From positions 60,655,880-60,719,879 of the forward strand of contig OU744731.1 in NCBI GenBank assembly GCA_916613615.1: a DNA stretch of 64,000 bases, in the 5' to 3' direction. The notes under the pieces are model-generated. The model was given only the letters and a program-made list of their open reading frames with translations, was not told where the DNA came from and ran no database searches. How positions within the stretch are numbered: position 1 is the first letter of the stretch; every line of letters begins with the position of its first letter. A program made the position numbers and the translations under genes. This document shows, piece by piece, positions 3,301-33,300 of the stretch. This DNA is from Steromphala cineraria (lineage: Eukaryota > Mollusca > Gastropoda > Trochida > Trochidae).

Positions 3301-6300
3301 TTTTCTGTAACGTCATCTCTCCATGTTCACGTTTGAATACGTTGTGACCGAACTTTGCCGAATGTCAACGAATTATGTTTCAAGTTATGAATGTTTATAT
3401 TGTATTCGAATGAAATGTTGATATACGTGCAAGTGGTATGCAAGTGAAATTTATAGCATCTTGCGTCAGTTTTTTCCCCAAATATTCATAACAGTTTTGT
3501 ATGCACTCTATTTCCATGTGACGTCATAGGTGGAGGAATGTGATGACATAATATTTCGTGAAAGGGTTGGCGGAGTAATTAATTAGGTCAAGACAACATG
3601 TAAACATTCTTCCGTGAACGGATTTGTTTGAAGTAAAATAAACGAAAAAAGGGTATGTAATAAATATAGAACGTCATTCTAGTGCATTTTTAGCTCACCT
3701 TTACAAAGTAAATGTGAGCTTATGTCATGGCGCTTCGTCCGTCGTCCGTCTGTCTGTCCGTCCGTCCGTCCGTCCGTCCGTCTGTCCGTCCGTAAACTTT
3801 CAGGAAAAAGACTACTCCTCCTAAACGAATCCAGATATCATTCTGAAATTGTAGTATGTTATACCCATGGTGATTCCTCACAGAAAGGTAGACGTTTCAG
3901 TTTTGAGAATCCAAGATGGCCGCCATGGCAGCCATATTAAATTTTCAATTAGATTTCAGGAAAAAGACTACTTCTCCTAAACGAATGCAGATATCATTCT
4001 GAAATTTTAGTATGTTATACCCATGGTGATTCCTCACAGAAAGGTAGACGTTTCAGTTTTGAGAATACAAGATGGCCGCCATGGCAGCCATATTGAATTT
4101 TCAATTAGATTTCAGGAAAAAGACTACTCCTCCTAAACGAATCCAGATATCATTCTGAAATTGTAGTATGTTATACCCATGGTGATTCCTCACAGAAAGG
4201 TAGACGTTTCAGTTTTGAGAATATAAGATGGCCGCCATGGCAGCCATATTGAATTTTCAATTAGATTTTACGAAAAAGACTACTCCTCCTAAACGAATGC
4301 AGATATCATTCTGAAATTGTAGTATGTTATACCAATGGTGATTCCTCACAGAAAGGTAGACGTTTCAGTTTTGAGAATCCAAGATGGCCGCCATGGCAGC
4401 CATATTGAATTTTCAATTAGATTTCATGAAAAGACTACTCTTTCTAAACCAATCTAGATATCATTCTGAAATTGTAGTATGTTATACCTATGGTGATTCC
4501 TCACAGAAAGGTTGACGTTTCAGTTTTGAGAATCCAAGATGGCCGTCATGGCAGCCATATTGAATTTTCAATTAGATTTCATGAAAATGACTACTTCTCC
4601 TAAACCAATCTAGATATCATTTTCATATTGTAGTATGTTATACCTATAGTGATTAATCCAACAAAGGTAGCCGTTTCAGTTTTGAGAATCCAAGATGGCC
4701 GCGATAGCAGCCATATTGACTTTTCAGCTGCAGATGACACATCATTATTACTAAATTTTAAGCTTTTATCAAGTGATCACTCGCACTATATAAATTCACT
4801 AATTTGAACTTACTAATAATATTATCTTGAATATGAAATATTTAAGATTGTCATGCAAGTTGTTCTATATTTTTAAGTGTTTCTAAAACATTAAGATGAA
4901 AGACAAACATAATTAATTAATTTGTTTAAAATATTTATGGCTGCATAAACTAGCTGCAAAAACCCAATGACATTAAACATCATGTTGAATTTTAAACAAT
5001 GGTATCTCCCTTATATTCCTTTAAATACCACACAAAAGGGGTCAACCAGAGTTCAGATATTCCTATGCTTTTCTAATACACATCCCAATACAGGCTGCTA
5101 GCATCACAGTCTCAGCTGCTAGTCTGTTGCATAATCAACCTGACCTGATATGGTAGAGCATTATGCTATATGGCCATGTGTATGCAATAAGAGTTATGGA
5201 AATTAGACTTGTATTCTCATGACAGTGATATGTTCTTTTTAAGAATAACAACTTACACAAAACTTGTCAACAATAAGCTTTGTGTTTAGCAATCTACATG
5301 ATAAGTTGATGTGGAAAGAGTTATTTTGCATCAGGTTCCAGTTCCTGTGTTTTACTCATATTTGTACCATTTCTATATCTAACAGAAGTTCTTCTTGACA
5401 CAAAATCAATTTAGGACATAAGCTAACTATATTTTGTGAAATTATATATATTTTTCACAACAATTCATGTTCTCTCATGTCAAGTCTTTTAATACCACAC
5501 ATAAGGGCTTAGCCAGAGTTCAGGTTTACATGCTCAGCACACTAGGATGCTTCTCCAAATATACGTACACAAAGCCAAATACACAAATGGCTACACTCTC
5601 CTTAAGGATCTGGGGCTAGCAGCCCTGCCTGCTTGTATATTGCATAGTAATCATGACCTAATTGATAAATACAACATAATGGACTTTATGGAAAGTATAT
5701 AAATTGTCTTTATGAAAAGTATACTTGTATTCTATTAAAAGTAATACTTTTTACAAATAACAATTTAAACAAGTCAAGAATCAGCTTTTGTGTACAACAA
5801 TCTGCACGATGAGTTAATATTAACAAGTCAAGAATCTGCTTTAATGTACTGTAATCTACATGATAAATTAATAATAGAGGTATTTTGTATAAGGTTCCAG
5901 TTCCAATACCATGTGTTTGATAAATACCTGTAAAACTAAATGATAATTGTATCATGCTGAAGGGGTTCTGGGAACAACATGTCATCATAGAAGTCATTAT
6001 TTTTCAATTAGATTTCAGGCCAAGTACTACTCCTATTAAATCAATTTAGATATCATTCTGAAAAGTGAGTATTTTTTTATATAGTGATTCCTGACAAAGA
6101 CGCATTTATTTTATGATCAAGAATCCAAGATGGTCAATATGTCAATTATATTGAATTTTCAATTAGATTTCATGAAATTCATTGAAAAGAATACATTTCC
6201 TGATCAATCAAATCAATGTCATTATATTTGTATTGATACGCTTGTTGTAATATTTATCAACACTATAATAGTATAAATACAGTTACAAAAAAATGTATGA

Positions 6301-9300: not shown

Positions 9301-12300
9301 CCCCCATCGCGGACAAGCCAGACCCAGCCAATCAACGTCGTCAAACAATCAACCCGAAGGTCCACACAGGGGGCAGGTCAACCTCAGGTCGGAGGTCAAT
9401 CAGTCCCGACCTCTGTTGTCACGGTAACCCAGGAAGCGTCTGCCAATCAGAAAGCAAGAGCAACCACTGTTGAGTATGAGAAGCAAAGGAAAGAGCTGTT
9501 GAGTATGGATCCAAGAAAAACTGCTGAAAAGGTATTGGATTTTATTTGAATGTTTGGAACACGAATCATGAGTGAGTGAGTGAGTTAGTGCTTAGGCAAT
9601 ATTGGGCAATATTTCAGCCATTAGCGGCAGTTGGTAAGATCTAAGCTCTAAAATCAAAAGCAATATTTGTGTCTTATTGTCATTGTCTTGTCAATATTGA
9701 ACGAAACAATATCTTAGAATCGTTTTTAAGGACATACCCTACGCATCAAAACATGCTTCTGCGCAGAACTGTGCGCATCGGACATCGATACAATAAGAAA
9801 TTTGCGACAATGCTGAATGCTTAAAAAATGTATCAAAAACATACTGAGAACATTTTTGTGGTAAACATGGACAACTGTTACATTTCTCACTTTTTGCATC
9901 TAATTTTATCTATATTTCACGTTCACACACAAATTGTGCTCAAATAAAAAATTTGATATTTTTTGGCCTTTTTCACAAAAATGTCATTTTTTAAATCGAT
10001 TTTACTAAAAAACGAGCACGGTGACCCCCTTTTTTTTTCTTTTTTTTTAAATCAGCACACTCAGTTAACAAACATGCTTAGTTTCAGAAAAATCTAAATA
10101 TTTTTATTTCTGAGTAGGGTTTGTCCTTAAATCAGTTATTATCAGATCATCCTTACTGTTTACTTACCCTAGAGACCAGAACCAAAGACAATTATCGAAG
10201 ATGTTCCCCAGACGTCTGCACCAGCCACAGCCACACAGAGTAGTCTCCCCTCCCGCTCAACTCACCCAACGCCACCTATCAGCCCAGCGAGGTCAATCAG
10301 CAGTGACTCGGAGAAGAATAGAGCCCTCGATTTGTCTGACACGTCATCACTTCACTCGCAGGATGGCGCTTCCGATATTCCAGGTATGACATTCCCCCCT
10401 ATTCTATCCACTCAGACTCGCAGGATGGCGCCTCCGATATTCCAGGTATGACATTCCCCCCCTATTCTATCTACTCAGACTCGCAGGATGGCGCCTCCGA
10501 TATTCCAGGTATGACATTCCCCCCTATTCTATCTACTCAGACTCGCAGGATGGCGCTTCCGATATTCCAGGTATGACATTCCCCCCTATTCTATCCACTC
10601 AGACTCGCAGGATGGCGCCTCCGATATTCCAGGTATGACATTCCCCCCCTATTTTATCTACTCAGACTCGCAGGATGGCGCCTCCGATATTCCAGGTATG
10701 ACATTCCCCCCCTATTCTATCTACTCAGACTCGCAGGATGGCGCCTCCGATATTCCAGGTATGACATTCCCCCCCTATTCTATCCACTCAGACTCGCAGA
10801 TTGGCGCTTCCGATATTCCAGGTATGACATTCCCCCCCTATTCTATCCACTCAGACTCGCAGGATGGCGCCTCCGATATTCCAGGTATGACATTCCCCCC
10901 CTATTCTATCCACTCAGATTCGCAGGATGGCGCCTCCGATATTCCAGGTATGACATTCCCCCCCTATTCTATCTACTCAGACTCGCAGGATGGCGCCTCC
11001 GATATTCCAGGTATGACATTCCCCCCCTATTCTATCTACTCAGACTCGCAGGATGGCGCCTCCGATATTCCAGGTATGACATTCCCCCCCTATTCTATCC
11101 ACTCAGACTCGCAGGATGGCGCCTCCGATATTCCAGGTATGACATCCCCCCCTATTCTATCCACTCAGACTCGCAGGATGGCGCCTCCGATATTCCAGGT
11201 ATGACATTCCCCCCCTATTCTATCTACTCAGACTCGCAGGATGGCGCCTCCGATATTCCAGGTATGACATTCCCCCCCTATTCTATCTACTCAGACTTGC
11301 AGGATGGCGCCTCCGATATTCCAGGTATGACATTCCCCCCCTATTCTATCCACTCAGACTCGCAGGATGGCGCCTCCGATATTCCAGGTATGACATTCCC
11401 CCCTATTCTATGTACTCAGACTCGCAGGATGGCGCCTCCGATATTCCAGGTATGACATTCCCCCCCTATTCTATCTACTCAGACTCGCAGGATGGCGCTT
11501 CCGATATTCCAGGTATGACATTCCCCCCCTATTCTATCTACTCAGACTCGCAGGATGGCGCTTCCGATATTCCAGGTATGACATTCCCCCCTATTCTATC
11601 CACTCAGACTCGCAGGATGGCGCCTCCGATATTCCAGGTATGACACCCCCCCCTATTCTATCCACTCAGACTCGCAGGATGGCGCCTCCGATATTCCAGG
11701 TATGACACCCCCCCCCCCTATTCTATCCACTCAGACTCGCAGGATGGCGCCTCCGATATTCCAGGTATGACATTCCCCCCTATTCTATCCACTCAGACTC
11801 GCAGGATGGCGCTTCCGATATTCCAGGTATGACATTCCCCCCCTATTCTATCTACTCAGACTCGCAGGATGGTGCTTCCGATATCCCAGGTATGACATTC
11901 CCCCCCTATTCTATCCACTCAGATTCGCAGGATGGCGCCTCCGATATTCCAGGTATGACATTCCCCCCCTATTCTATCTACTCAGACTCGCAGGATGGCG
12001 CTTCCGATATTCCAGGTATGACATTCCCCCCCTATTCTATCCACTCAGATTCGCAGGATGGCGCCTCCGATATTCCAGGTATGACATTCCCCCCCTATTC
12101 TATCTACTCAGACTCGCAGGATGGCGCTTCCGATATTCCAGGTATGACATTCCCCCCTATTCTATCCACTCAGACTCGCAGGATGGCGCCTCCGATATTC
12201 CAGGTATGACATTCCCCCCCTATTCTATCTACTCAGACTCGCAGGATGGCGCCTCCGATATTCCAGGTATGACATTCCCCCCTATTCTATCCACTCAGAC

Positions 12301-15300
12301 TCGCAGGATGGCGCCTCCGATATTCCAGGTATGACATTCCCCCCTATTCTATCCACTCAGACTCGCAGGATGGCGCCTCCGATATTCCAGGTATGACATT
12401 CCCCCCCTATTCTATCTACTCAGACTCGCAGGATGGCGCTTCCGATATTCCAGGTATGACATCCCCCCCCTATTCTATCTACTCAGACTCGCAGGATGGC
12501 GCTTCCGATATCCCAGGTATGACATTCCCCCCCTATTCTATCTACTCAGACTCGCAGGATGGCGCCTCCGATATTCCAGGTATGACATTCCCCCCCTATT
12601 CTATCTACTCAGACTCGCAGGATGGCGCTTCCGATATTCCAGGTATGACATCCCCCCCCTATTCTATCTACTCAGACTCGCAGGATGGCGCTTCCGATAT
12701 CCCAGGTATGACATTCCCCCCCTTTTCTATCTACTCAGACTCGCAGGATGGCGCCTCCGATATTCCAGGTATGACACCCCCCCCCTATTCTTTCTACTCA
12801 GACTCGCAGGATGGCGCTTCCGATATCCCAGGTATGACATTCCCCCCCTATTCTATCTACTCAGACTCGCAGGATGGCGCCTCCGATATTCCAGGTATGA
12901 CATTCCCCCCCTATTCTATGTACTCAGACTCGCAGGATGGCGCCTCCGATATTCCAGGTATGACATTCCCCCCTTATTCTATCCACTCAGACTCGCAGGA
13001 TGGCGCCTCCGATATTCCAGGTATGACATTCCCCCCCTATTCTATCTACTCAGACTCGCAGGATGGCGCCTCCGATATTCCAGGTATGACATTCCCCCCC
13101 CTATTCTATCTATTCAGACTCGCAGGATGGCGCTTCCGATATTCCAGGTATGACATTCCCCCCCTATTCTATCCACTCAGACTCGCAGGATGGCGCCTCC
13201 GATATTCCAGGTATGACATTCTCCCCCCTATTCTATCCACTCAGACTCGCAGGATGGCGCCTCCGATATTCCAGGTATGACATTCCCCCCCTATTCTATC
13301 TACTCAGACTCGCAGGATGGCGCCTCCGATATTCCAGGTATGACATTCCCCCCCTATTCTATCCACTCAGACTCGCAGGATGGCGCCTCCGATATTCCAG
13401 GTATGACATTCCCCCCCTATTCTATCCACTCAGACTCGCAGGATGGCGCCTCCGATATTCCAGGTATGACACCCCCCCCTATTCTATCTACTCAGACTCG
13501 CAGGATGGCGCTTCCGATATTCCAGGTATGACATTCCCCCCCTATTCTATCTACTCAGACTCGCAGGATGGCGCCTCCGATATTCCAGGTATGACATTCC
13601 CCCCCTATTCTATCCACTCAGACTCGCAGGATGGCGCCTCCGATATTCCAGGTATGACATTCCCCCCTATTCTATCCACTCAGACTCGCAGGATGGCGCC
13701 TCCGATATTCCAGGTATGACATTCCCCCCCTATTCTATCTACTCAGACTCGCAGGATGGCGCTTCCGATATTCCAGGTATGACATTCCCCCCCTATTCTA
13801 TCTACTCAGACTCGCAGGATGGAGCCTCCGATATTCCAGGTATGACATTCCCCCCTATTCTATCTACTCAGACTCGCAGGATGGCGCTTTCGATATTCCA
13901 GGTATGACATTCCCCCCCTATTCTATCTACTCAGACTCGCAGGATGGCGCCTCCGATATTCCAGGTATGACATTCCCCCCCTATTCTATCTACTCAGACT
14001 CGCAGGATGGCGCCTCCGATATTCCAGGTATGACATTCCCCCCCTATTCTATGTACTCAGACTCGCAGGATGGCGCCTCCGATATTCCAGGTATGACATT
14101 CCCCCCTTATTCTATCCACTCAGACTCGCAGGATGGCGCCTCCGATATTCCAGGTATGACATTCCCCCCCTATTCTATCTACTCAGACTCGCAGGATGGC
14201 GCTTTCGATATTCCAGGTATGACATTCCCCCCCTATTCTATCTACTCAGACTCGCAGGATGGCGCTTCCGATATTCCAGGTATGACGTTCCCCCCCTATT
14301 CTATCCACTCAGACTCGCAGGATGGCGCCTCCGATATTCCAGGTATGACATTCCCCCCCTATTCTATCCACTCAGACTCGCAGGATGGCGCTTTCGATAT
14401 TCCAGGTATGACATTCCCCCCTATTCTATCCACTCAGACTCGCAGGATGGCGCCTCCGATATTCCAGGTATGACATTCCCCCCCTATTCTATCTACTCAG
14501 ACTCGCAGGATGGCGCCTCCGATATTCCAGGTATGACATTCCCCCCCTATTCTATCTACTCAGACTCGCAGGATGGCGCTTCCGATATTCCAGGTATGAC
14601 ATTCCCCCCCTATTCTATCCACTCAGACTCGCAGGATGGCGCCTCCGATATTCCAGGTATGACATTCCCCCCCTATTCTATCTACTCAGACTCGCAGGAT
14701 GGCGCCTCCGATATTCCAGGTATGACATTCCCCCCCTATTCTATCTACTCAGACTCGCAGGATGGCGCCTCCGATATTCCAGGTATGACATTCCCCCCCT
14801 ATTCTATCTACTCAGACTCGCAGGATGGCGCCTCCGATATTCCAGGTATGACATTCCCCCCCTATTCTATCCACTCAGACTCGCAGGATGGCGCCTCCGA
14901 TATTCCAGGTATGACATTCCCCCCCTATTCTATCCACTCAGACTCGCAGGATGGCGCCTCCGATATTCCAGGTATGACACCCCCCCCTATTCTATCTACT
15001 CAGACTCGCAGGATGGCGCTTCCGATATTCCAGGTATGACATTCCCCCCCTATTCTATCTACTCAGACTCGCAGGATGGCGCCTCCGATATTCCAGGTAT
15101 GACATTCCCCCCCTATTCTATCCACTCAGACTCGCAGGATGGCGCCTCCGATATTCCAGGTATGACATTCCCCCCTATTCTATCCACTCAGACTCGCAGG
15201 ATGGCGCCTCCGATATTCCAGGTATGACATTCCCCCCCTATTCTATCTACTCAGACTCGCAGGATGGCGCCTCCGATATTCCAGGTATGACATTCCCCCC

Positions 15301-18300
15301 TATTCTATCCACTCAGACTCAATCCAAGTAAATTCTTACCAGGTAAAATTGGTAGTAATTTGACAAGTTTTTGGGCTAAAATAGTTAATCCTGGTTGAAT
15401 TATTGTGTAATCAATAGAGGTGTAACGATATGGTATATATATGTATAGTATCGTTTGGGATATATTGGTCCACGATATGTTGCATTATCATATATCTAAC
15501 AATAATATGGTGTGTTTTGCATGTGTGATAGAGGCATGGACACAGCACTGATATTGTCGCCCGGTCCACAAATCCATACCAATATCGGCCCAGGGGGACT
15601 TTTGGTTATCTCCCTTTGCAGAGTAACATCGGGCTGATATGGGGGTCTCGGGCTGTTATTAGGTACGATATTAAAAGTGACATGTTATAACCTCTAATGA
15701 TCGAATGAGTAAGTGAATTATTGTTTTATGCCGCTTGGGCAATATTGCGGCCATTAGCGGCGTTATGGTTTGAAGGATGCATATTGTGATACATAACATG
15801 TTAATGTATATTCAATGTAGATGATGAAAACTGAGAGTTTTAAAAGGTATTTTTTATGCACACAGGAACTTTAAAGTTTGATGATATTAAAAGTACATCA
15901 AACCAGGTACAAAGTTAAATTCTTGCACAAAAATAATTGAACCAAATATTTTGTGGAAAGATCATTGTGTCAGTATTGATGTGTAAGCGGATACGTATCG
16001 TATCTCGACCCCCATATTAGGATACGTAACGTACCCCGACTCTCCCGTATCTGTTTCTTTAACCTTTGAGAGGACCCATGTTATTTCAATCTGTTCACAT
16101 ATTGCTTACAGAAAACATATTCTCTCCGAAAGGTTTAAACAATATTGATAAGGACAGGACCGGTTTTGCAATATTCAATGCTAGAGGATATTTAAGAGAA
16201 CCGCAGTTTCAAGGTAAAAAATGACCTAAAACATTTTTGAGAAGAGAATGCTGTTTGAAAATTAGAGAATTCTTTTTTCTTCAGTCTAAGTAACCCTAGC
16301 CGTTTCACTTCTATACTGAGTCTAGTATGAATGACCTTTTCCAAACACGCTGAAAATTTATCTGGATCAATAAATTAATTTGTTTATGAATTTAGTCGAA
16401 ATTCTGTCTGTTTTATGTTGATAATTGACAAATTATTATTTCAATTGTTACAGAGGGAGACTGCCCTTTCCTGCTGCTGAGCCAGGTAAGATGATGTGTA
16501 ATATAGATGACAATTGTTATTAAACATCTGCCAGAAACCTTAAAGGGGCAGTAGCACATTTTTAGGGGGAATATAAGGTGATGTCAGGAAAATGAAAACA
16601 AATGGTTCCAATTGAAAGACAATGTATTAAAATTAAATGGAGCAGTAATGATTCAAATATATAATGTAATGTTTAGACATGCGATTAATTCTTCTTACAC
16701 AAAATGAATAAAAGGTGTTAAAAAAAAATGGCCGCCAATGGATTTTATGTGAATCTTCATACTTTGTCCTCTGACTATGGCTGATTGGCTTGTGTAATGA
16801 GATTTATGACACTATCAAAATAGTACATTTAGCATTAACATACAATTATCAGTGACCTTTTTAAAATATAAAATTATCAAAAAACGTGCTACTGCCCCTT
16901 AACATACAGTATCCAAAATCACTTGTTCATTACATGCTTACTAATCATATGATTGACTAATCACAGTGTGTCTGTGCAGGGTCAGTACTGCAGTATTCGC
17001 TGTTACTTTCCAAAGATTCTGCGCAATTGTCAAAGATGTCGTATGATTTTGGAAAATATCAGGTGATGTCAGGATAATGAAAATAAATGGTTCCAATTGA
17101 AAGACAATATATTTAATCTTAATGAAGCAGAAGTAGATCAAATACATAATATAAAGTTCAGCCATGCGATTACTTTTTCTTGCACAAAATAAATGAAAGG
17201 TGTTCACACAATAATGGCGGCCAATGGACTTTATGTAAATCTTCATACTTTGTCCTCTGACTATTGTGATTTTTGACACTGTCAAAATAATACATTTAAC
17301 ATTAACAAACAATTGTCAGTGAAAAATGGATAATATAAATTTTAAAAACGTGCTAGTGCCCCTTTAAGCTGTCATTCTACATGTATCTACATTTATAGTG
17401 ATATTATTCAAAACCAATATTTTATTTCTACACCTTTGATCTTAGCTGAAAATTGCACGAGTCACCAACATCGTTGACAACTTTTGTCATTTTGTGATCC
17501 AAATTTAAGCTATAGTGCGCTGTACTCATGTCAATCATGTTTAAAAGTAATTTTAGTGATTTTATTCCCCTTTTGTCAAATTGTTTATCATCAAACATTT
17601 TCACTTAATAAAACCAGAAATCAAGTAGAAAATAAAGTCTTAATAGATAACAGATTTGTGGTCTGGTCTGCTATTGTTGAACCTTGCTTTAGAGGTACTC
17701 AAAATGAAGGTAGGCAGTTATCTCCCTTTCTCTATACATCAGGAGGAATACGCAGAGCATCACTCAGCAGTCTCATACGGACGATTTAGCGTGTCCGGTC
17801 AACATGTGGCCAGTCTCGATGTGGACGGAGTGGTCAAGTAAGTGAGAACATGTCATAGCAATGAGAAATTTAATCAATTTGACCTCAATCTCTTATAAAG
17901 TTATTTGTTGCATACCACAACATAGTTCATAGTTCATAGTTCATAGTTCAACATTTTTCACCTTTCATAGTTTGTGTAAGGATCTATACCGAAACATCAC
18001 TATTCTGTAAATAAAGAAGTATAGAAATCTTGTATTTTACTTTCATAGTTTGCCTTTTACATAAATAAATCCAAATACTGATGAACTACAGAGTCCATTA
18101 TATATGAATGGTGCTTAACATTAACTTAGAATAGCTCACATACACTAGGTCCAACACAGAAGCTGAGCTGTTATTAATTATTAATGTAATTTGTCATAAG
18201 AATTTCTTTTATTTGGACATATTTGTGTTTTACTCAATTGGTTATTTATTCAGGATATATAAGAAAAAAATTTATATTAAAATATGAATATTTAAAGAGA

Positions 18301-21300
18301 CGCAGAGTATGTTGATAGGATCACATATGTCAAATTTTGATATCGATGTTATTACATCGGGAACCACTAACTGTTACTGAAAATAACAAGTTAAAGGTCA
18401 ATCAGTAGATTAGAGCCAAAATACGGCCATTCAAAGTCGGGATTTTGATCGAAAACCGGACAATGTGGCTCGAGTTGCGCGCGCAAATTCGCCATACGTA
18501 CTTTTGAAACCATGTCATAAACTGACAGGAAGATATATTTGATTCGATAACGTTTATAAGGGATTAATTGGATGCATACTTTCGAATATTAAACGTATTT
18601 GAGATGTTTTCTTGATTTTTCCATAAAATCAAGCATTTTAGAGATATTATGCATAAATGGATATATTTCCAAGTCCAGTAATGAGATATGAACTTCAATC
18701 AGCATATAAGTTATTTGTAGCTCATCAAAACCAAATACAATTTTAAGAAGGATACTCTGTGTAACTTGAAGACCCAATTGACAAGCAAACCGTTTTTTTT
18801 TAAAGAGCCACTCTGTTAGTTGTCAGGGGTCACGGCCAGGGGTCATGTTTGCCATACTCCACCAAAGTAGTGTAATCTGAGGAAGTATAGATTGTTGAAG
18901 GAGAGTACAACCGGAAAGTTTTAATTCATGATTGTTTTCGAAAACCGAACATTGACGTAATTCTAAAAACTTATCTGCCAGAATGAAATTTACGAGTTGA
19001 TCATAGGTTATATAACAAGTATTCATGTAAGTTGGACATGTGAATTCGGATTTTGCAAATTTAAGAATTTCAATAAAAGATGTTTTAACATATAATTTGC
19101 ATTTGAGGATGAATATATGAGATATTTTGAATAAATTTCATGAATAATGCCATTTTCGTTCATAGCTAAGGAAAACAGTTTGTGATGTAAATCACGGGGT
19201 GACTCTTTAATGTTTTGAATTCATCCCTTATGAAAGGAATTTCTTGTGAATAAAGTGCTAGTGTTACTTCTAGGCTTATTTAGCAGAGCGCAGCGCCCTG
19301 CCCTTCCCAGAGTCTGCCCTGCCCCTTTTCTGTTCCGCCCCGCCCTTTTTCTAAGATGTCATGCCATTTTTGCCAGCTAAAACATTTCAATTTACCTTTT
19401 CCAGACACAGTAAGATCGATCCATTGTTTCAACAGGACACACAGTCTGCTGACCACATGTTTAGCTCGTTACAGGAACACTAGGGGATTACTGACAGAGT
19501 GTTGGGTGGTGGATACAGCTTAATGATCGCATTAGGAGTTAATTACAGATGTTGAAATCCTTTGCCCTTTTATATTAGGTCAAACATCACATTTATTAAT
19601 AAATACAAAACAAAAATAAAATTACAAGTATATTTCAGTGTTTATATTTGCAAATACTTATGTTTTATGCTGCACCATTTTCATTTGAAAATTCAATTTG
19701 TATGTATGTGCCCTTTTACGAGAAGTTGTGCCCTTTTATAAAGGCATTTACCCTGCCCTTTTTTCAGCTTGGGGAAAACACTAAGTGCTAGTGACAATGT
19801 TGTGTGTGTTGTGTTTGTAGAGTATGGACGTGGAGCCCGCAGCCCGTCACTACCGCCACTGTCATGTCCAAGTCTGCCTTCCTTTCTCTCGAGTGGGCCA
19901 GCAAGTCAGATAGATGGGTAATGATGATGATTATGATGAAGCTGAGATAATTATTATTTTGGTAAAAGTATCACTCAGCTCATCCTGTCTCAGGGAACGA
20001 ACGTTACGCTAACTCCACTAATCCGTACCCTGGGCTCAGAAGCTAGATTCGCTCGCGCAGCCTGATCTGAGAAATAGCCAATCAAATCATTTTCTCATTT
20101 TCATATGATAGTGGAGTTAGCGTAACTTTCGTTCCCTGAGACAGGATGACACAGCTTCTACTACAAGTTCCCTGTTGCAATGTGAAGTCCTTTGGTGCTT
20201 GATCCTTCAGAAATACTACAAGACTAAAGTTTAGACTCAGTGAAAAGTGTCATGTCCTTTTTTCTATCGCTGATATCTTAAGAACAAGTGACTCTATTCT
20301 TCATGTTTCGGACTTAACGCCGTAACAGCGATTTAAAGAAAGTTTGAACATTTTATTTGACCTCAAATAATGAAAAACTGTCTTTTTTTTTCAACCAAGT
20401 CTCAGTTAACTTTCATGGTGGACGTGTTAATCAAGATCCATTACTGACAAATGCATGACACTTTGGTAATAAATTGAGGTTTGAGAAAGCATAAATCAAT
20501 TTTACCATACCCACCAATACCACAATTTCATAGCATCATTTGATGGTGAGTCTAAACTATTGTTGTGTAATATATAATGCTGCTTCTCTGCCTCATGAAC
20601 TGAAATGTGTTTCTACCCTAAATGCATTCAAATCCCAGCTCAAGACTTATCTTTACAAACGATACAACTACGTCAACAACCTTATCTTATCTGTATTTAT
20701 GTATATATCATCTTCATTCTGCAAATGGTTATGTATGCTCATTTAGATGTGTGCGCTTTACCGGTACTCTTATTATTATTATTATAACAGATCGATAAGT
20801 ATCGTTTCACTTGAGTTTGAAGATAATGATATCTGATAGGTTATGAACATACCTTCTGAATTACTTTGCTGTTGGAGTTAAATTTAAGAACTAATTTTCC
20901 TGCATCGTTTACCAGTTTTCGGAACCAGCATTTTGAAAAAAAAAAGGGGGAAGAGGGGAGAGGATCCTTTTAAAGGTAATTTCCCTTTGAGACATGGAAG
21001 CCCCCATACAAACAGTGAATTTTCATCAAATCTCGACAAACAATTAATAATAATATAATAATATATTGCATTTGATAATGCGCCACATCCACCCAATTGA
21101 GTGCTCTGTACGCAGTTACAATTACGTTTGCAGATCATTTGCTGGTTTTCAGACTGTTCCATATCATAATAAGGTTAGGTATCGTTCCTCATTTGCATTT
21201 TCAATACGTATTGCAATATATTGGTATACTTCTTTAATTCAAGAATTGCATGCCATCTTGTCTTAATATGAGCGTTAAGAACGATCATCATTGCTCAGCT

Positions 21301-24300
21301 TTGAGCCGTTTTGGAAAGGGATATTTTTTCAATCACTGTTTATGATCTGTATACATATTTAAGCTATTTTCTCAACACAACTTACAACTTTGTATAGAAC
21401 TTTTCGTCAATGATCTTTTATTTGGTTGTGTTTTTTGCAATCGATATATAATAGATGGAAATAGCTCGAATTATTGGCGTAAATCTCCCCTCTGGGACGA
21501 AACGCAGCCCCTCTCTTCATTCTCCGAATGAGCCAGCAGAAGTCTAAATAAAAATAAAAAGAAATAACCTAAGTCATATTCACCATTAGTGGTATGCAGC
21601 TCCTCTCTTCACTCCTGGAGTTGTCTCCCTTTGACTGCCTATGTGGCAGCCTCATATTCTCTTCTGCTAGCTCTAGAGATGGAAGCCATTCAGAAGTCTG
21701 GATAATTTTCTTCAATACTTCTTCATGTGCTGTGTTTTCTTGGACTATATGGTATGTGATATCGACATTGGGTCTTAACAGACAACCGCATTCGTTTTTT
21801 GTGTCTTTGAACTGTGTTTTTTGTGACTTGTGAAATTTTTTTCTGTGACTGTCAACGTGTTTTCCGCGAAGTACTGTCTTGTGTGTTTCGTAATGGCTAC
21901 CCAACGTAAATGTGTGTCTTGTCAACGTTTCATGTCGGATCGCGATCCTCATTCCCTTTGTGTTCTGTGTGATAAGAATCCCATTTGTTTTCCTGATGCG
22001 CGTTGCCTTATGTGTAGGGACTTAGACAAAGATACGTGGGCTAAACTCTGCGAGTTACGTGCTAAGAAAGCTAAATCTTCCTCCATTGCTCCTCATACTC
22101 CTCCCCCTGCTATGGACGGTCATGAATCGGATTCTCCTATCCCCCCTTCGGGAACTGTAGCAAATCCCACGGCTAATCCTAACGATTTAACGGCGTTTCT
22201 TAATTCCTTCAAACAAGAAATGTTCACCTCATTCCAAAACAATTTTCAAGCTATGGAACGGAAAAACGATGAAAAGATCGCCTCCTTGAAAAAGTCTCTC
22301 TCTAAATCCCTTTCGAGTAGCCTGGCTAAGGGCGGGTCTTCACGTAAGATTCCTCCTAGTTCTGAATCGTCCCGTGGTGACAAGCTTAAGCCGTCTAAAC
22401 GGGCCGCCGACCCTAAGGACACGGTAGTTAAGGCGGGTGATACTTCCAAACGGCAGTGTTTACCGGGCTCGGGCCTGCCTAAGGATGGTCAGGTTGACCA
22501 GGTGAAAAAGACTTTAGTCCGTTCTGACGACTATTCTGTCCCAGATTCGGGCGGGTCACACGTAGTGGACGCCGTTAACCTGTCCGTACCCTGCTCTGGG
22601 ACGGCTCGGGGCGGGTCTCGCGTGCAGGGTGATAAGCCCGTCAACGGCTCTAATGCCACAGCTACTGGCCCAGTGTTTGAAATAAGAATCCAAAAACTGC
22701 TTGTCAATAAGGACCCGCAGATAGAAAAAACTGTGGGCCCAACTCCGAAACTGTCGGCATTCATTAGCAGTACTGATTTGACTTATTCTAAAATAAAACT
22801 CTTCTTGGTATCATTGTGTTATAAATACACAACACTGTTATCAGTTTAGAGTGATATTTAAGAGGGTTTGGCAAGGAAATATGTCTTACAGCAAATATTG
22901 TTATAAAGGAACATCATCATATTAAAAAACTGTGAGCCTGTAAGGACCTGAAGATATTGACAAGTGTGGGCCCTTGTGAATAACTGTCGGTGTCGGGCCT
23001 ACGGGCCTACGCTTATTTCAAACACTGTACTGGCCCAGTCCAGGATGCTATTGACACGGTTAGCACGCGTGATCCGTGCCTTGGCTCACGGACGCAGCAA
23101 CTCTCCACGGACGGCACGGGCCTCTCGGGGTCAGTAGGTCACGGCTCGGGTGACACTGTAAACAAACAGGAGCCGCTTGATTTCGTCAACGTATCTAATC
23201 CGCCGTTCCTCCCGATCTTGACGGACTTAGAAGCTGAAGATAAACAGCCCGTTGACGTTAAACTCCACTCTCATGAAGGATTAGCAATCATTCCTGCAGT
23301 TGATTCTTCGGACATTCCGGACTTAGTCCCGAACTGGACTTTTGTCCTCACTTGATGAGATTTTGGATCAGCCGTTACCTGAGGAGCTCGGCTCGACGGG
23401 TATACTTCCTCCTAAGCGGGCACCCAAGCGATCTTTACCCCACTCGACAGTGGTCAAGAACGGACTCGACATCGTGAATGCCAATCTCGCCAAGGCCAAG
23501 GATGCTTCCTCCTTATCTAAGCTTCCCCTTAAGAACTCTTACGTTATTCATGATCGGGTTTTACCAGCTGCCGCTCCGGATATTGACAGAGATTTCGCCC
23601 GTCTTAATGCTAAACCTCTTCCTCGATTCCAAGGAGATAAACTGTCTGTTCCTCGCAAGGACTTGAAGGACTTGGACGCCGCGGCTAGGAATTCCGTTGA
23701 CATTCTGTCCTACATTAACTGGTTTGCGGCTGGTGTCAGACAACTTCTTCCGTTGACTTTCCATAGTTATGAAGGGATCAAGCCCCAGACACTCACTGTC
23801 ATGAGCGCAGAGGAGGTTGCCCTCGCCCACTCCTTTTTGGAAGTTATCTACCAGGCCGCGGGGGACGCCACCCAAGCTCAAGTTGCCTCCCTGGCTCGTA
23901 TAACTGCCCTTGAAAGATCTCAACTGTTAGGATCCGTTAGGAATTTGCCTGTCGACACGAAGGAGGATCTTTTCCAACAGCCGTTGAACTCCGACTCTAT
24001 TTTCAACGGTCAGTGCGCACAGGCAATCGCTTCTCAGGAGGCTCAGACTAACAGACATCTCAATCAGCAACTCGCCTCAGCTCTGCTAGCTCAGACCAGA
24101 AACCAACGTGGTTCCTTCCGAGGTCGTCGTGGACAGCCCAACTCTACACCCCGACCCCCCCTCCATCGTTCTGCTTTCGACCGAGCTAGTAAGCCCTTTG
24201 AACGCTCTCGACCCCCTCCTACTCAACCTCAGACCCCCAAGGAGAGTCAAGGTCCTCCTCCCAGGTACAGTTTTCGTGGCAGAGGAAACAGAGGAGCCAA

Positions 24301-27300
24301 GAATACCTTCCGTCGCTGACTCTTTCCCGGTCGGTCTTCCAAACCTACACCCTTTCGATCTTGCTATGCCCATGGACTCCTCTCTAGATTTCGATTTTGT
24401 GACGCCAGTCGATTCCTCCCCAGTGGGGGGTCGTCTGCAACGATTCGCACGGAACTGGCAACTCATCACCCCGGATCTTTGGATCAGCTCTGTGATTTAC
24501 GACGGGTACCAGCTCCAATTCCAGACGCGCCCGCCCCTAGCGATTCATCCGATGGGAAGGAGATTTTTCTTACAAGGACCGCGTCTGGACGCTGCTCTAC
24601 TGGCAATAGAGCAGCTCCTGCTGAAGGAGGCAATTGTGGAACTCTCTCCTCTCGATTCGTCCCGAGGTTTTTACTCACCAGTGTTTCTGGTGCCGAAGCG
24701 CGATACGACAGAGATGCGCATGATAATAGACTTAAAGATTCTCAACAAGGATTTCCTTCAGCTCCCTCCCACTTTCACCATGGAGTCGCTGAAGAACGTG
24801 AGGAAGCTCGTCCAACCCAACAGCAAATTCATCAGCATGGACCTGAAGGACGCATATTTGCATATACCCATCCACAAGCACTCACAAAAGTTCCTAAGGT
24901 TCGCCGTAAACGGAAGAAGATTCCAGTTCCAAGTTCTTCCGTTCGGAGTGTCAATCGCGCCTTGGTTATTCACTATGGTCATGAAACCCATCCTACACTT
25001 TCTACACATGAGAGGGATTGCGATCCATGGGTACTTGGACGATTTTCTGGGAAGGCACATTTCTACAGTGATGCTAATCAAACAGACCAAGTTCGCCATA
25101 CATGTCTTTACTCATCTAGGATGGATAGTTCACCCGGAGAAGTCCGAACTAACCCCTACACCCAAGATCAAGTTCCTAGGTGCGATACTAGATGCGGAGA
25201 AGTGTTTTATTTTCCCCATACAGGATCGTTGGCTGACAACCCGCAAACTGATTCTCTCTCTTCTCGCCGTACGAGTCACAACTCTCAGGAAGTGGATGTC
25301 CCTCCTAGGTTTTCTTACGTCGATACAGGCCTTTACGTACAGAGGTCGCCTCAACCTAAGGCATACTCAGGCGTGGATCAACGCGAACAGACACCAGGAA
25401 TTGGATTCTCGCTTAGTGTGCCCTCCTCAAGTGTGTCGCGAACTGGACTGGTGGACGTGGGAGTCCAATGTGATGACGGGAACGCGATTCACAGATCCTC
25501 CTCCGACTTTCACGATCTTCACGGACGCGTCAAGGGAAGGTTGGGGAGCCCATATGGATTCGCTGGAAGCACAAGGGATATGGACAAAACAGGAAACGAT
25601 GTTGCACATAAACTCTCTGGAGCTTCTCGCAGTCATCAAAGCTCTCAAGGTGTGGTGGAGGCTTCTTTATCACGCAAGTTTGATGATAGCGACAGACAAT
25701 GCGACAGTGGTGGCTTACATCAACAAGCAGGGCGGGACCAGGTCCCAGGAGCTTATGGATTTAACGCGACAGCTATTCTCTCTAGCGGATCAGTGCAGAG
25801 CCAACCTCAGGGCCAGGCACATCCCAGGCAGGTTAAACGTGTTAGCGGACTCACTATCCAGAAGCAAACAGGTGATTCCGACGGAATGGACTCTTCACGA
25901 GGATGCATTCCAGTTGATAGTCAACAAGTGGGAGACCCCGTTTTTCGATCTTTTTGCTACAAGTCGAAACTACCAGTTACCAAACTACGTCAGCCCTATT
26001 CCAGACCCAAACGCTTGGGCAGTGGACGCTCTCTCGATATCGTGGCAAGGGATGACAGCGTACGCCTTTCCTCCAGTAAAGATCATCCCAGATGTGTTAG
26101 CCAAGATCTCGACTCAGGACTGTCTCATCTTTCTGGTAGCGCCAGCGTGGCCCACGAGAACTTGGTTTCCGAACCTACTGGATCTATTAACAGACTATCC
26201 TCTGAAACTGCCGTTGTGGGACAACCTGTTGTACCAACCCATTTCGCTCAAGACTCACGGAAATCTATCGGCACTGAATCTTCACGTGTGGAGGCTATCA
26301 AGGAATCGCTTTCATCTAAAGGTTTCGGACGAGATTCTTCGAGTGCTATCCTACAATCTGTCAGACCCTCCACATCTAAATTATACGACGCCAAATGGAA
26401 GATTTTCTCCGGCTGGAGACAGCAAGTGGGACTGTTAGACTCAGCCATATCCATTCCCATGATTGCGGACTTCCTATTGTTTTTAAGAGATGTTAAGAAA
26501 CTTAAGCACGGTACCATCGAAGGATATAGATCGGCCATAGCTTCTGTTTGTGACTTACAAGGATTATCGGTGGGAACGGATCAATCTCTACACAGAATGT
26601 TAAGATCTTTTCAGATTAAGGATATGTCCACACCTTCGATTTTTCCCAAGTGGGACTTAAGGATCGTACTCCAATCACTACTTAAAGCACCCTACGAACC
26701 TTTGAACTCTACCACACTAAAGTTTCTCTCTTTTAAGACTGCCTTTTTGCTAGCCTTTGCTTCTGCTGCCAGAGTATCGGAGTTGCACGCGATCGACAAT
26801 TCCTCTATCAGATTTTCAGACGGGTACAAGGAAGTCTCTTGCCGTGCGCTCCCGGAGTTTTTAGCTAAGAACCAGTCAGCTTCTCTAGGACCGTTAGGTA
26901 CTCGTGTGTACAAGATACCAGCTCTACCTTCATCTTCCTCTCGCTCAGACAAGGATAGACTACTTTGCCCAGTTAGGGCTCTTAGATGGTACCTCCAGAG
27001 AACTGCTTCGTTTCGGAGGAACAGAAGGAGATTGTTTCTTTCATGCAAGACAGCGGTGGATTCCGAGATCTCAAAGAATACCATTTCGTCTTGGTTAAGG
27101 AAGACCATCGTACTCGCTTATCAGTCAGTTGATCAGGATTCTGTCAATGTCAAGTTCTCGCCTCACGAGATTAGAGCTCTCGCTTCTTCACTATCGGCGT
27201 GGAAATCTGTATCTATCAAAGAACTTGTCTCAGCATGTCAGTGGAAAGGATCGAACACTTTCATTTCATCGTACCTTCGAGATATTGCTCAGTCTCTAGA

Positions 27301-30300
27301 CGGAATTTGTGATCTGGGTCCGCTAGTAGCGGCTCAGCATGTTACCTCCGCCTAAACCACTTACAAGTACAAGAAAAGAGAGGGGGGGGGGTCGGGGTCG
27401 TCAGGAGGTTTTTGACGACTGACCTCTTCTAGAGTCACCATGTAACTTAAGAGGTGAGAACATACTGTGAATTGAGTTATGGTGAAGGTTTTACGGGAAG
27501 GTACTACACGTAGTTATTTACACTTAAGTTGTGGACTGGTATATCCACCAAACTCTATCACCTAGGTAGTATGTCTAAGTATGACGTAAAGCTAGGGATT
27601 AACCGGAAGTGACGTCATCAGTAATTGATGACGGAACATGAACCGGAAGTGACGTCATAACGGGTTCGAAAGAACCAGAATACTGTATGGTTTACATACT
27701 CATAGGTGTGTTGGATTACGTCATATTCAGAGATTTACCTATTTCATTAACCAAGTGGTGTGCACTCACTCCTAACGATATTGTTAAGGTGAAAGGATAA
27801 TAAAGTACGGGAGAACTGCATGAGGTGTTGTTGGAGTTGTTTTTGGTACTGCAATACATAGATCTAAAGAGATAAATAATGATCATTGTAACCTAAAGGA
27901 TTATTGGCATTAAAGTAAAGGGGTTAACATCCCCTGGATCCCTCCTCCTTTATGTAAAATTCGGGACTGCGTTTCGTCCCAGAGGGGAGATTTACGCCAA
28001 TAATTAGCGAACAATTACATGTATTGTTAGTAATTATTAGTAAACTCACCTCTGGGACGAACGATAAACGCCCGCCCAGAGAGTACTAATTCCTCCCCTC
28101 ACTGTTCCAGGTGATGGTTACCTACAGTGCGAGAATATGAGGCTGCCACATAGGCAGTCAAAGGGAGACAACTCCAGGAGTGAAGAGAGGAGCTGCATAC
28201 CACTAATGGTGAATATGACTTAGGTTATTTCTTTTTATTTTTATTTAGACTTCTGCTGGCTCATTCGGAGAATGAAGAGAGGGGCTGCGTTTCGTCCCAG
28301 AGGTGAGTTTACTAATAATTACTAACAATACATGTAATTGTTCGCTTTTTAAAACAATCAATATATTGAATATTTTCAGGAGTGTGTAACGATTCGTATC
28401 ACGTTTTTCCTGTATTGCAATATACCGATATATCGATAATACCACGCATCCTTATATCTTACACTTGTTTTCTTGTTTTAATTCTTAAAACTGCTAATGA
28501 TATTATTTTGTTATTTCCAGCTTCTCCTGGGGAATAGAACGGGCAATATCCGCCTGTTTGATGTGAAGGAAATAAAGACATTCCGAGAAGTGCAAGCTGA
28601 CCAGAGCTACCCAAGGTACAAAAAAATAGATCCATTGGCTCTGTAGCTCATCAGGCTGTATATTTGATTTTGCTTTAGGGTGTGGCCAATGTGGTTCCCA
28701 TATTAGTAGGGGTTACATGGTCACAGAATCTCCAATTAATAATCCTCAATAGTCAAGTTTCAGCTTTCTAGGCCTTATGGTTCTTGAGAAGAAGATGAAA
28801 ATAGGTTTTTAGGGCGTGGCCCCTGTGGCCCTTATTAGGGGCCACAGGGCCATAAAAGCTACAATAATTTATAATCCTCACTAGCCAAGGAGTCTGTACA
28901 CAAAGTTTCAGCTTTCTATGCCTTATGGTTCTGGAGAAGAAGTCGAAATTCCACAAAGTTTACGGACTGACGGATGCCGGACACCATGCAATGCCATAAG
29001 CCCATCAGGCCTTACTGATCGTAGACCAATATATGGTACTTACAACTATTTGGAACTAAGAGAGCTTCAAAAATGTAAACCCTGGCTTGTAAACCTGCTT
29101 CATCTGATTTACAACGCTCTTTAAAAAAGACGATCTTAAAGAAGATCACATTTGGTCTTGATTTTGCCAATAATTTTTTGATATTAGTAATTTCTGGTAA
29201 ACACTTCATTGATGCAATCCATTGAAGAAGAGAGGGAGATTGCTTTTCTTTTACTTCATCAGTCTATTACAAATTAAAGGGTGTGTCCTATCGGGTCATT
29301 TTTTTGGAAACGAAATCCAAGAGGACCATTGATGCATTCTATTCATTGACAAATTGTTAAATCTTGAACAACTAAAATATTGCTCTTACTAACTGAAAAT
29401 ATGTGTGAAATAATCATGTAATTATCATGTGAATTTATAAACAGGGAAGTACTCTTAAATTTTGAAAAAAGATAATCCCCTGATAGGACTGTCCCTTAAA
29501 GGGAACACATTTCTAAGACTTGATATCCTAGTTTCTTTCATAAGGTGACATGTTGTCGGTGACATGTTGTCGGTGACACGTTGTCAGTGACATGTTGCAG
29601 ACATGCCTACCCTTACGATTTTGGCTTAATGCTTACTATTTTTTGTGTCAAATTACGATATTACGATTGGGGTAATAAAAATACGATTAAAATCAAAATT
29701 TATGTATTTCCATGTTTTTTTCATGTATTTTCTGTAGTTCGAAGTAACATCTGAAATATTGATGTTGCAACATACCTGAGTTTGTCGTTAATTGAGTGTT
29801 TTGATTGAAAATAAATCTCGTAATAATAACTGTAAACAAAGATCGCTAAACCAGGAAGTAAGTGAACCGGTTGTAGGCAGTGCGCATGACTATTTAATTC
29901 AATTATCCAGCCAAAGTCAGACTGGAGCACTGAGTTTTTCTCGGAACGATCGTATCAAAACAAACTTTTATTGTCTTCAGAAGTATTACAAATACCTTAC
30001 TATAATTTTGCTCAAATTACTATTTTCTAGAGGCAGTGCTACTATTTGTTTTAAAAAGGGGTAAGCATGTCTGCATGTTGTCAGTGACATGTTGTCGGTG
30101 ACATGTTATTGGTGACATGTTGTCAGTGACATGTTGTCGGTGACATGTTGTCAGTGACATGTTGTCAGTGACATGTGTTGGTGACATGTTGTCAGTGACA
30201 TGTTGTCGGTGACATGTTATCGGTGACATGTTATTGGTGTCATGTTGTCAGTGACATGTTGTCGGTGACATGTTGTCAGTGACATGTTGTCGGTGATATG

Positions 30301-33300
30301 TTGTCCTATACATTTTCAATTAATATTTTAGTTATTAGTTTTGCTAACTTTGTTTCAGAATCATTAACATAACCGCCAATCCTGTTGGGATGAGTTTCGT
30401 CTGCTCTGCTACGGTCCAGCGAATAAGAAGTGGAGTGACGGATGTCTCAACGTTAGTCAAACCTGGCAAGCTCATGTTGTGGGACCTGCGATCTATGAAG
30501 ATTGATGTAAGTATCAAGTGCTCTCGTGCTTTCTGAAGGGTCAAGCTGAGAGTTTTGGGAGTACCACTTGCGTTCATGTTGAATTATGCAAGTGTTGGAG
30601 GAACAATATTGCAGCTTTTAGATAATCAATGTAATTTATCTAAAACTAAAGTGACACAGAGTATCTTTCTTCAAATTTTATTTGGTTTTGATAAGCTACA
30701 AAATATCTTATATGCTGATTGAAGTTCATATCTCATCACTGGACTTGCAAATATATCCATTTATGCAGTTGATTTATGCATAATATCTCTAAAATGCTTG
30801 ATTTTATGGAAAAATCAAGAAAACATCTCAAATACGTTAAATATTCGAAATTATGCATCCAATTAATCTACCTATTAGTTGCAATACCTAATAAACACTA
30901 TTGAATGGAATATATATTCCTGTCAGCTTATGACAAGATTTCAAAATTCATTTGGTGAATTTGCGCGCGCAACTCGAGCCACATTGTCCGGTTTTCGATC
31001 AAAATCCCGACTTTGAATGGCCGTACTTTCACTCTAATGTACTGATTGACCTTTAACTTGCTATTTTCAGTAACAGTTAGTGGTTCTGTTATGTGTTATG
31101 TAATAACATCGATTTCAAAATTTGACAAATATGTGATTCTATCAACATACTCTGTGTCTCTTTAACCACAATTCTTGACAACTAATCTGAAACAATGAGG
31201 AAAATACAGATGACAACTTTTTTCATCATTTTTTACACTTTCATATTCTTAATAGATTGATTTGAGGATTCCTTATTTGCACACAAAAGTTCATCAGGAC
31301 AACCTCTCATACAGATCAATGTTATTAAGACAGTATTAACAAATATGGAAATGTCGATCTAGATTTATTAAGATTTAAATTTGAATAACCTAATGTGTTG
31401 TTCCTCACAGAAACAATTGCCTCTAGAACCGACGCCAGTTGCCATCAACTGCTGCCAGTACAACCACAACGGTCAACTTCTCCTCACAGGGGGTGCTGAC
31501 GGCAGGATCAGAATATTTGGTAAAATCTATCAGAGCAATGATATTTATAGACTTATCTTGACATTGCAAGACTCGCAAGTAAAATGGCTGCCGATGATCA
31601 GCCTACCAAAATCCTGACCCAATAACCTGAAATACAGTCTGTTTAAAAACGACCGGAATAAAATATCAAAAATATTGTCTCTATCAGGGTTCAAACCATT
31701 CGGGATATCCTCTCCGTCTCAGTCTGAATGCATCCATCTCTATTGCATGTTGCTATAACCAGTTTAGCGCAGACAAACCCAGTCGTAAGCTATCCAATCA
31801 CATCCGCATTACGTATAACGAATGGTACACTGGAGTTACCTGCCCCTAGCATGATATTGTAAGCGTTTGCTGTGCTCCTTGTAATTAGTTAGATGAGCTT
31901 GCGTCAGAACATGCGGGGTGCCTTCAGACTGTGAATGAGAGGAAAGCCTGGCTTTGTGTGGTTCGAACCCCACTAGAGATTATATTTTAATTTTTTTTTC
32001 CTCAAATCACAGTCGATTTTAATCAGACTGACCTGAAATAATTAACCTATTAACTGCTAGTTTAAACCTTGCAGTATTTCCCCCAAGTTTTGGTGCCTGA
32101 TCTCAAGGGTACTGCAGCAAAGATCAGGAGTAGAATGCATGAAAGTACTGGGCTCCCATATTGATGTTTATTTGCAAGGTTTGCCATTGTGGGAGAATTA
32201 TTACGATTACCTTCCCATGCCACTTCAGTCTAAGTAAACCTAGCCTCAATATTATCCTTTTCACTACTGTACTACGCCACCCTCTACTAGGCCTTTTTAG
32301 ACTCGGCATAGGAGTGAAACGGATAATATTGACGCTAGGTTTACTTAGACTGATGGCACTTTAGGCTGACCATATTTTGTTCTTCCGCCGACCCTGATGT
32401 AAAATAAAAAAAATGTTTTTATTTGTCATTTGTTCACCACTTTATTCAAAAGCAGTCCACTCTGATAAGAAAATCTGTTTCATGACACAACCTTTAAAAA
32501 ATCTGAATAATCTCAACCAGGAATTGCCTTTCCCCATTTGGCTTATCACTTTTCATTGTCCTTATCATTGCATGACCATACAGCTACAAATACACCAATT
32601 TTTTTGTCGACCGTCCGCTCACATGCAGAAGGAAATAGGAGATGGGGAAAAATGGATGGCAAGACAAGGAAAAAAAGTGACTTGTCGGTCTCCACCAATT
32701 AACTCAGAAACAAAAATGTTATTCACTAGAGATGTCACGATACACCGATGCATCGTCGTGGTACAGTTCATGATACGATACACGATACATTTACACTGAA
32801 TCGTGATACAATTTTTGATGAATATTGTTCAACTTTTTGGTGAATATCGAATCAATAAATCAAGAGATAGCCTTTCTGTTCATGTTGGAAAATAGAGGAT
32901 TAAATGACTTTTTCATAAAGAAGTTGACTTGTTTTTGTGTTTAAATGTTGGTGACTGATAATTCTCATAAGAAATATTAAATTTAGATCTATGAATTTGT
33001 ACCTCACCGTAATAATGCCGCATTTATTGTATCGTGATATGTATCGTATCGTGACCTTAGTATCGTGACATGTATCGTATCGTGAGATGCCTGTATCGTG
33101 ACATCCCTATTATCCACCCCAACATCTATCGTCTCACATTGACAGACATCCAGCAACACAAGTGTATCACCCAGTGGCCGGCCCACGACGGGGAAGTGCT
33201 GAGTGTGCAGTTTAGCTCTGACGAGACCTCCTGCTACAGTATGGGTGGAGATGGCAAGGTAGGGAGAGAGAGAGACCATTTCCTGCTCTATCATAAGGGA

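Follow-up and report, generated by a model that had tools for sequence, protein, structure and literature searches.

Are the units of a minisatellite that repeats the end of a coding exon, donor site included, spliced as exons, or are they removed with the intron in which they lie? This question is raised by a 64,000-nucleotide (nt) stretch of the genome of the gastropod Steromphala cineraria (contig OU744731.1, positions 60,655,880 to 60,719,879), hereafter the window, in which coordinates are counted and which comes from a single genome assembly. In its WDR91 gene, a tandem array of about 63-bp units (array 1, position 10354 to 15320, forward strand) crosses an exon/intron boundary and takes up 4937 nt of an intron that is 6070 nt long. 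A preliminary description had presented this array as a chain of micro-exons and micro-introns. We consider it probable that array 1 is instead an exon/intron-boundary minisatellite, of the kind called "mirage" in amphioxus, likely neutral and spliced out whole with its intron.

Structure of the array

Tandem Repeats Finder (TRF) delimits array 1 as 79.1 copies of a 63-bp unit with 96% matches. The array begins inside the 211-nt WDR91 exon e (10173 to 10383, forward strand), the last 30 nt of which constitute the first repeat copy. Each unit consists, in this order, of a 30-mer copy of the exon end, the donor CAG|GTATGA and a pyrimidine-rich, C-rich spacer. Decomposing the array unit by unit, we found CCAG followed by GTATGA at the end of the 30-mer in 79/79 units, and TCAG closing every spacer (79/79). 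The preliminary description of the repeat, with its exon-end copies, donor, pyrimidine-rich acceptor and 30-nt length in phase 1-1, is thus accurate, and only its numbers need adjustment. Its figure of about 79 is correct for units; complete cassettes (acceptor, 30 nt, donor) beyond the real exon end number 78, because the first 30-mer belongs to the real exon and closes it. The 33-nt segment it gave between copies is found in 58 of the 78 spacers, the others being of 32 nt (n = 17), 34 nt (n = 2) or 35 nt (n = 1), with the length differences located within or beside the C-run. The start at 10354 stands, while the end moves from 15316 to 15320 to include four trailing bases, ACTC (15317 to 15320, forward strand), identical to the four bases with which the array starts in the exon (10354 to 10357).

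All cassettes are 30 nt long, in phase 1-1 and free of stop codons. The 30-mer encodes the same decapeptide in 74 of the 79 units, and three variants occur in 3, 1 and 1 units (three phenylalanine and two other replacements). Reading the whole array through as one long exon was rejected, since the frames close inside it owing to the 32-nt spacers.

The unit is found at one place. Across the 1.27-Gb assembly, a 42-nt unit probe matched exactly at 44 positions, every one of them within array 1 (reversed control: 0), and one exact-pattern scan of viral contigs gave 0 matches, a result that leaves room for other viruses or elements. There are 28 distinct unit types among the 79, in a non-random order: a run of 8 units is found again 24 units away (at most 5 in 500 shuffles), which suggests unequal exchange.

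Coding continuity across the array

A homology search (563 matches found, best 120 listed) confirms the initial assignment of the gene, as the exons in the window match WDR91 throughout. The best homologue among the matches listed is WDR91 of Haliotis cracherodii, a vetigastropod (76% identity over the whole query); the Branchiostoma floridae homologue exhibits 40% identity, and on these figures an amphioxus origin of the sequence was rejected. We placed 14 exons in the window, from 89 to 36669, in a model that is uncertain at two edges (the donor of exon b and the acceptor of exon c). Exon 1 lies outside the window, and none was found within 10 kb upstream. Based on reading frame, splice sites and Haliotis colinearity, exon e ends in phase 1 at the donor CAG/GTATGA. 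Homology identifies the following exon f (16454 to 16485, forward strand), which encodes 11 residues when the final base of exon e is added. This exon of just 32 nt, adjoining array 1, is kept in Haliotis.

Joining 10383 directly to 16454 keeps the frame and yields a protein that aligns without gaps to the Haliotis WDR91, so that no array-derived residue is needed. Both the exon at 16454 and the conservation of the frame when all units are skipped had been predicted correctly. A motif corresponding to the decapeptide, SQDG-x(1-3)-D-I/V-P, was found in 0 of the best 120 of the 563 homologues, among which the protein of S. cineraria itself does not figure.

The splice signals were scored with a weight matrix built from 12 real donors and 14 real acceptors of WDR91 in the window. 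The array 1 donor scores 8.0 bits, against 2.8 to 10.6 for the real donors (leave-one-out). The acceptors of the array have a mean score of 1.59 (range 0.52 to 4.12, n = 79), against -3.35 to 10.66 for the real ones, and 26% of the 1852 other AG dinucleotides in the gene score as high as this mean. The branch-point consensus YTNAY is absent from the unit. The sole branch-point-like TNAY sequence (TGAC) overlaps the unit's own donor; one unit could therefore hardly act as a donor while also providing the branch point of the following acceptor. An intron of 33 nt would fall short of the minimum usual in animals. Since donor and acceptor-like end occupy different places in the unit, introns within the array would measure 33 + 63n nt, and introns of 96 nt, joining every second unit, are possible.

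The splicing of the units as micro-exons, as first proposed, has so far found no support, given the colinearity of the skipped product with Haliotis and the unremarkable acceptors. Decapeptide isoforms appear unlikely, because a 33-nt intron is too short, the array acceptors are unremarkable and, as described below, the copies in other mirages have lost splice sites. The donor in use would be the first one (10383), as the 211-nt exon ending there is preceded by a real acceptor, while the internal 30-nt exons would have unremarkable acceptors and introns of 32-35 nt.

A second array and exon-edge copies at other exons

The original framing in terms of micro-exons misses a wider pattern. The same gene harbors a second boundary array at another donor. 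Exon m (33604 to 33795, forward strand), in the WD40 region, was defined by its match to solved WDR91 WD40 structures and by Haliotis colinearity; it ends with ILYQ in phase 0 at the donor CAG/GTAGGG. Array 2 (33778 to 36299, forward strand; 126.7 copies of a 20-bp unit by TRF) starts 18 nt before the end of this exon and continues over the donor, occupying 2504 of the 2706 nt (92%) of the intron. It has no acceptor-like part, and the inclusion of a single 20-nt unit would shift the WD40 domain out of frame. Its donors have decayed: among the 123 pieces delimited by successive CATAC sequences, CAGGT[AG]G is kept in 75 and missing from 48. The intron is followed by the last exon n (36502 to 36669, forward strand), identified by homology and containing the stop codon. 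In both exon pairs, e-f and m-n, the real exons and their boundaries are intact, conserved and colinear with the Haliotis WDR91. A run of 27 G lies inside array 2 (35646 to 35672).

Exon-edge duplications are found at other exons as well. We compared each of 46 exons (14 from WDR91 and 32 from kinase domains) with its own flanks, covering 91 exon sides. The kinase exons, which lie elsewhere in the same assembly and were chosen by us as short matches from 137 listed, were taken with flanks of 600 nt (n = 20) or 350 nt (n = 12), and their edges are those of the domain match rather than of annotated exons. Controls consisted of 182 antisense or reversed comparisons (maximum score 25, 95th percentile 22). 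Seven of the 91 sense comparisons exceeded the control maximum and 11 the 95th percentile. In six of the top seven, the sequence copied is the exon edge adjoining the flank in question: WDR91 exons e and m, and the kinase loci L033, L037, L042 and L044. The seventh (WDR91 exon n, score 28), being an interior match, is probably due to chance. Exon-edge copies are thus found at 2/14 WDR91 exons and 4/32 kinase exons, or 6/91 exon sides. When exons were paired with mismatched flanks, a score of 27 was reached in 41 of 3744 pairs, which gives P = 7e-5 for at least 7 of 91; this null is conservative, since it holds homologous kinase exons (scores up to 55).

The four kinase cases differ in form. 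At L033 (381 to 620 of the locus), the acceptor together with 27 bases from the exon start recurs 156 nt upstream, making two copies with a period of 156; this is a young mirage. At L042, the end of the exon is copied 131 nt downstream, and the donor GT is changed to AT in the copy. At L037 (103 to 613 of the locus), a degenerate 39-bp array extends over the acceptor of the kinase exon, which we take to be TSSK-like. At L044, a 109-bp array bears a copy of the exon start at its outer end; in this copy the exon edge alone can be recognised, and no splice site. The position of the splice site is included in the copies at L033, L037 and L042. The available part of a report on an abalone TSSK1-like gene describes a 27-bp minisatellite in an intron, and does not describe it as spanning a boundary (PMC6905558).

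Such events occur against a background of abundant repeats. Tandem arrays with a period of at least 10 make up 13.4% of 200 kb sampled as 20 random 10-kb windows from one contig (C38). Given this abundance, the capture of exon edges at 6/91 sides needs no special mechanism, and neutral expansion is enough. Single arrays in the random windows reach 6.7 kb (L023, 1164 to 7873).

The introns of WDR91 also contain minisatellites that overlap no exon, at 30074 to 30305 (14 bp x 16.6 copies, ending 54 nt before an exon) and at 3798 to 4726 (156 bp x 6 copies). A retroelement (24090 to 27355) lies in the intron 19918 to 28520. Its reverse transcriptase and RNase H matches share one frame, and a tyrosine-recombinase match on another frame is below threshold (E-value = 0.0045, missing the Pfam cut-off). 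The layout resembles that of DIRS elements.

Comparison with known repeat systems

In amphioxus, the available text of two reports applies the name mirages to minisatellite-like tandem repeats over exon/intron boundaries, in Adh3, the globin genes BflGb6 and BflGb9, PGBD5 and others (PMC3087553, PMC3902484). As described there, mirages start in a real exon, at 5' or 3' splice sites, often carry AG/GT signals and are unstable in length. Arrays 1 and 2 likewise combine sequence from both sides of a single exon/intron boundary and begin in a real exon. Together with the kinase cases, they are mirages by structural definition. Three differences should be noted. The host is a mollusc; the copies number 79 and about 125, versus 3 to 6 reported for BflGb6 in the text at hand; and each unit of array 1 has in addition an acceptor-like end, making it a complete in-frame cassette. 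The likeness is structural; undisturbed splicing and unstable length are features described in amphioxus. In the open-licence literature searched, we found no mirages outside amphioxus under that name, nor any case in a mollusc.

Array 1 can also be compared with the dual-specific splice sites of human UBC and VCX3A, where, according to the part of the source available, AGGT is present at each tandem unit and units can be skipped or kept in frame (PMC10809524). Each unit of array 1 has an AGGT too. In UBC, however, the coding sequence of the protein consists of the units themselves and intron length is an integer multiple of unit length, whereas in array 1 the donor and the acceptor-like end are at different places and the pyrimidine tract precedes another AG. 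In one model of intron gain, as far as the available text sets it out, new splice sites originate when AGGT sequence at a boundary is duplicated in tandem (PMC2812944). The intron of array 1, in contrast, existed before and was only lengthened. Human segmental duplications, too, reportedly contain tandem repeats where exons meet introns. Schistosome micro-exon genes contain arrays of short in-frame exons that are expressed and separated by ordinary introns. The short in-frame exon-like units of array 1 resemble them, but its spacers are 32-35 nt long and the units are known here as sequence features.

Alternative explanations

Several observations weigh against a neutral array spliced out whole. 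The donor of array 1 is a good one; GT and AG are kept in all 79 units; and WDR91 does splice a micro-exon, as the real exon adjoining the array has only 32 nt. The lack of YTNAY is weak evidence, because 2 of the 14 real introns share this lack in their last 60 nt. None of the 11 splice-core columns varies, versus 17 of the 45 other scored columns (p = 0.011, hypergeometric), although the GT and AG columns alone give p = 0.22. Among the types of substitution in the 30-mer, 5/9 are synonymous versus about 27% expected (p = 0.06, or p = 0.036 when a pair of adjacent changes within the same unit is treated as a single event). These signals of constraint are weak, and they point towards use.

It is for this reason that we leave some small probability to isoforms. 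The array would then be a stochastic generator of linker length, in which units, mostly every second one or further apart (introns of 96 nt or longer), are spliced as in-frame 30-nt micro-exons and a variable number of decapeptides is added before the WD40 domain. Under this unlikely scenario, the 78 complete, stop-free cassettes of uniform length and phase would form a splicing lottery with selected splice sites, and the WDR91 linker would differ in length per cell or per allele. Such arrays would arise readily, in a genome that keeps making exon-edge minisatellites. The scenario accounts for the constancy of GT and AG, and it has a precedent in the 32-nt exon next door. It fits poorly with acceptors that are ordinary among the AGs of the gene, with the missing branch-point consensus, with the persistence of the phenylalanine and other replacement variants, and with the loss of splice sites in other mirage copies of the genome; the missing motif among the homologues examined counts weakly against it, the species' own protein not being included. 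Slightly less likely still is a role as a splicing decoy or brake, where the many binding sites for U1 and U2 would slow or lower WDR91 splicing according to array length, adding no coding sequence. The presence of 79 good donors and 79 acceptors within 5 kb would suit such a role, but the donors of array 2 have decayed, and neither length nor position shows any sign of conservation. Moreover, in the available text on the amphioxus cases, RT-PCR (reverse transcription-polymerase chain reaction) of globins and Adh3 data suggested that mirages leave regular splicing undisturbed (PMC3087553). An inflation of the copy number by the assembler is very improbable. Tandem arrays are error-prone and we have a single assembly without reads, but the array is composed of 28 unit types whose order is not random, with one run of 8 units recurring at long range, and the same class of exon-edge duplication recurs at unlinked loci.

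Origin and implications

The second array at another donor and the exon-edge copies at other exons place array 1 in the class of mirages rather than among dedicated splicing devices. The first tandem duplication of this boundary minisatellite may have taken place between the ACTC tetramer of the exon and that of the intron, possibly through microhomology, and later growth would have proceeded by slippage and unequal exchange. An array anchored in the end of an exon would do no harm and would be tolerated, since the exon end and the donor stay whole in the exon-proximal copy whatever the copy number.

The finding of mirages at 6/91 exon sides in a mollusc suggests that genomes rich in minisatellites produce them as a general by-product. 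Boundary minisatellites would provide duplicated splice sites ready for use, and such sites have been proposed as raw material for both intron gain and exonization. As a test case array 1 is extreme: the spliceosome has to find the right donor among 79 identical ones.

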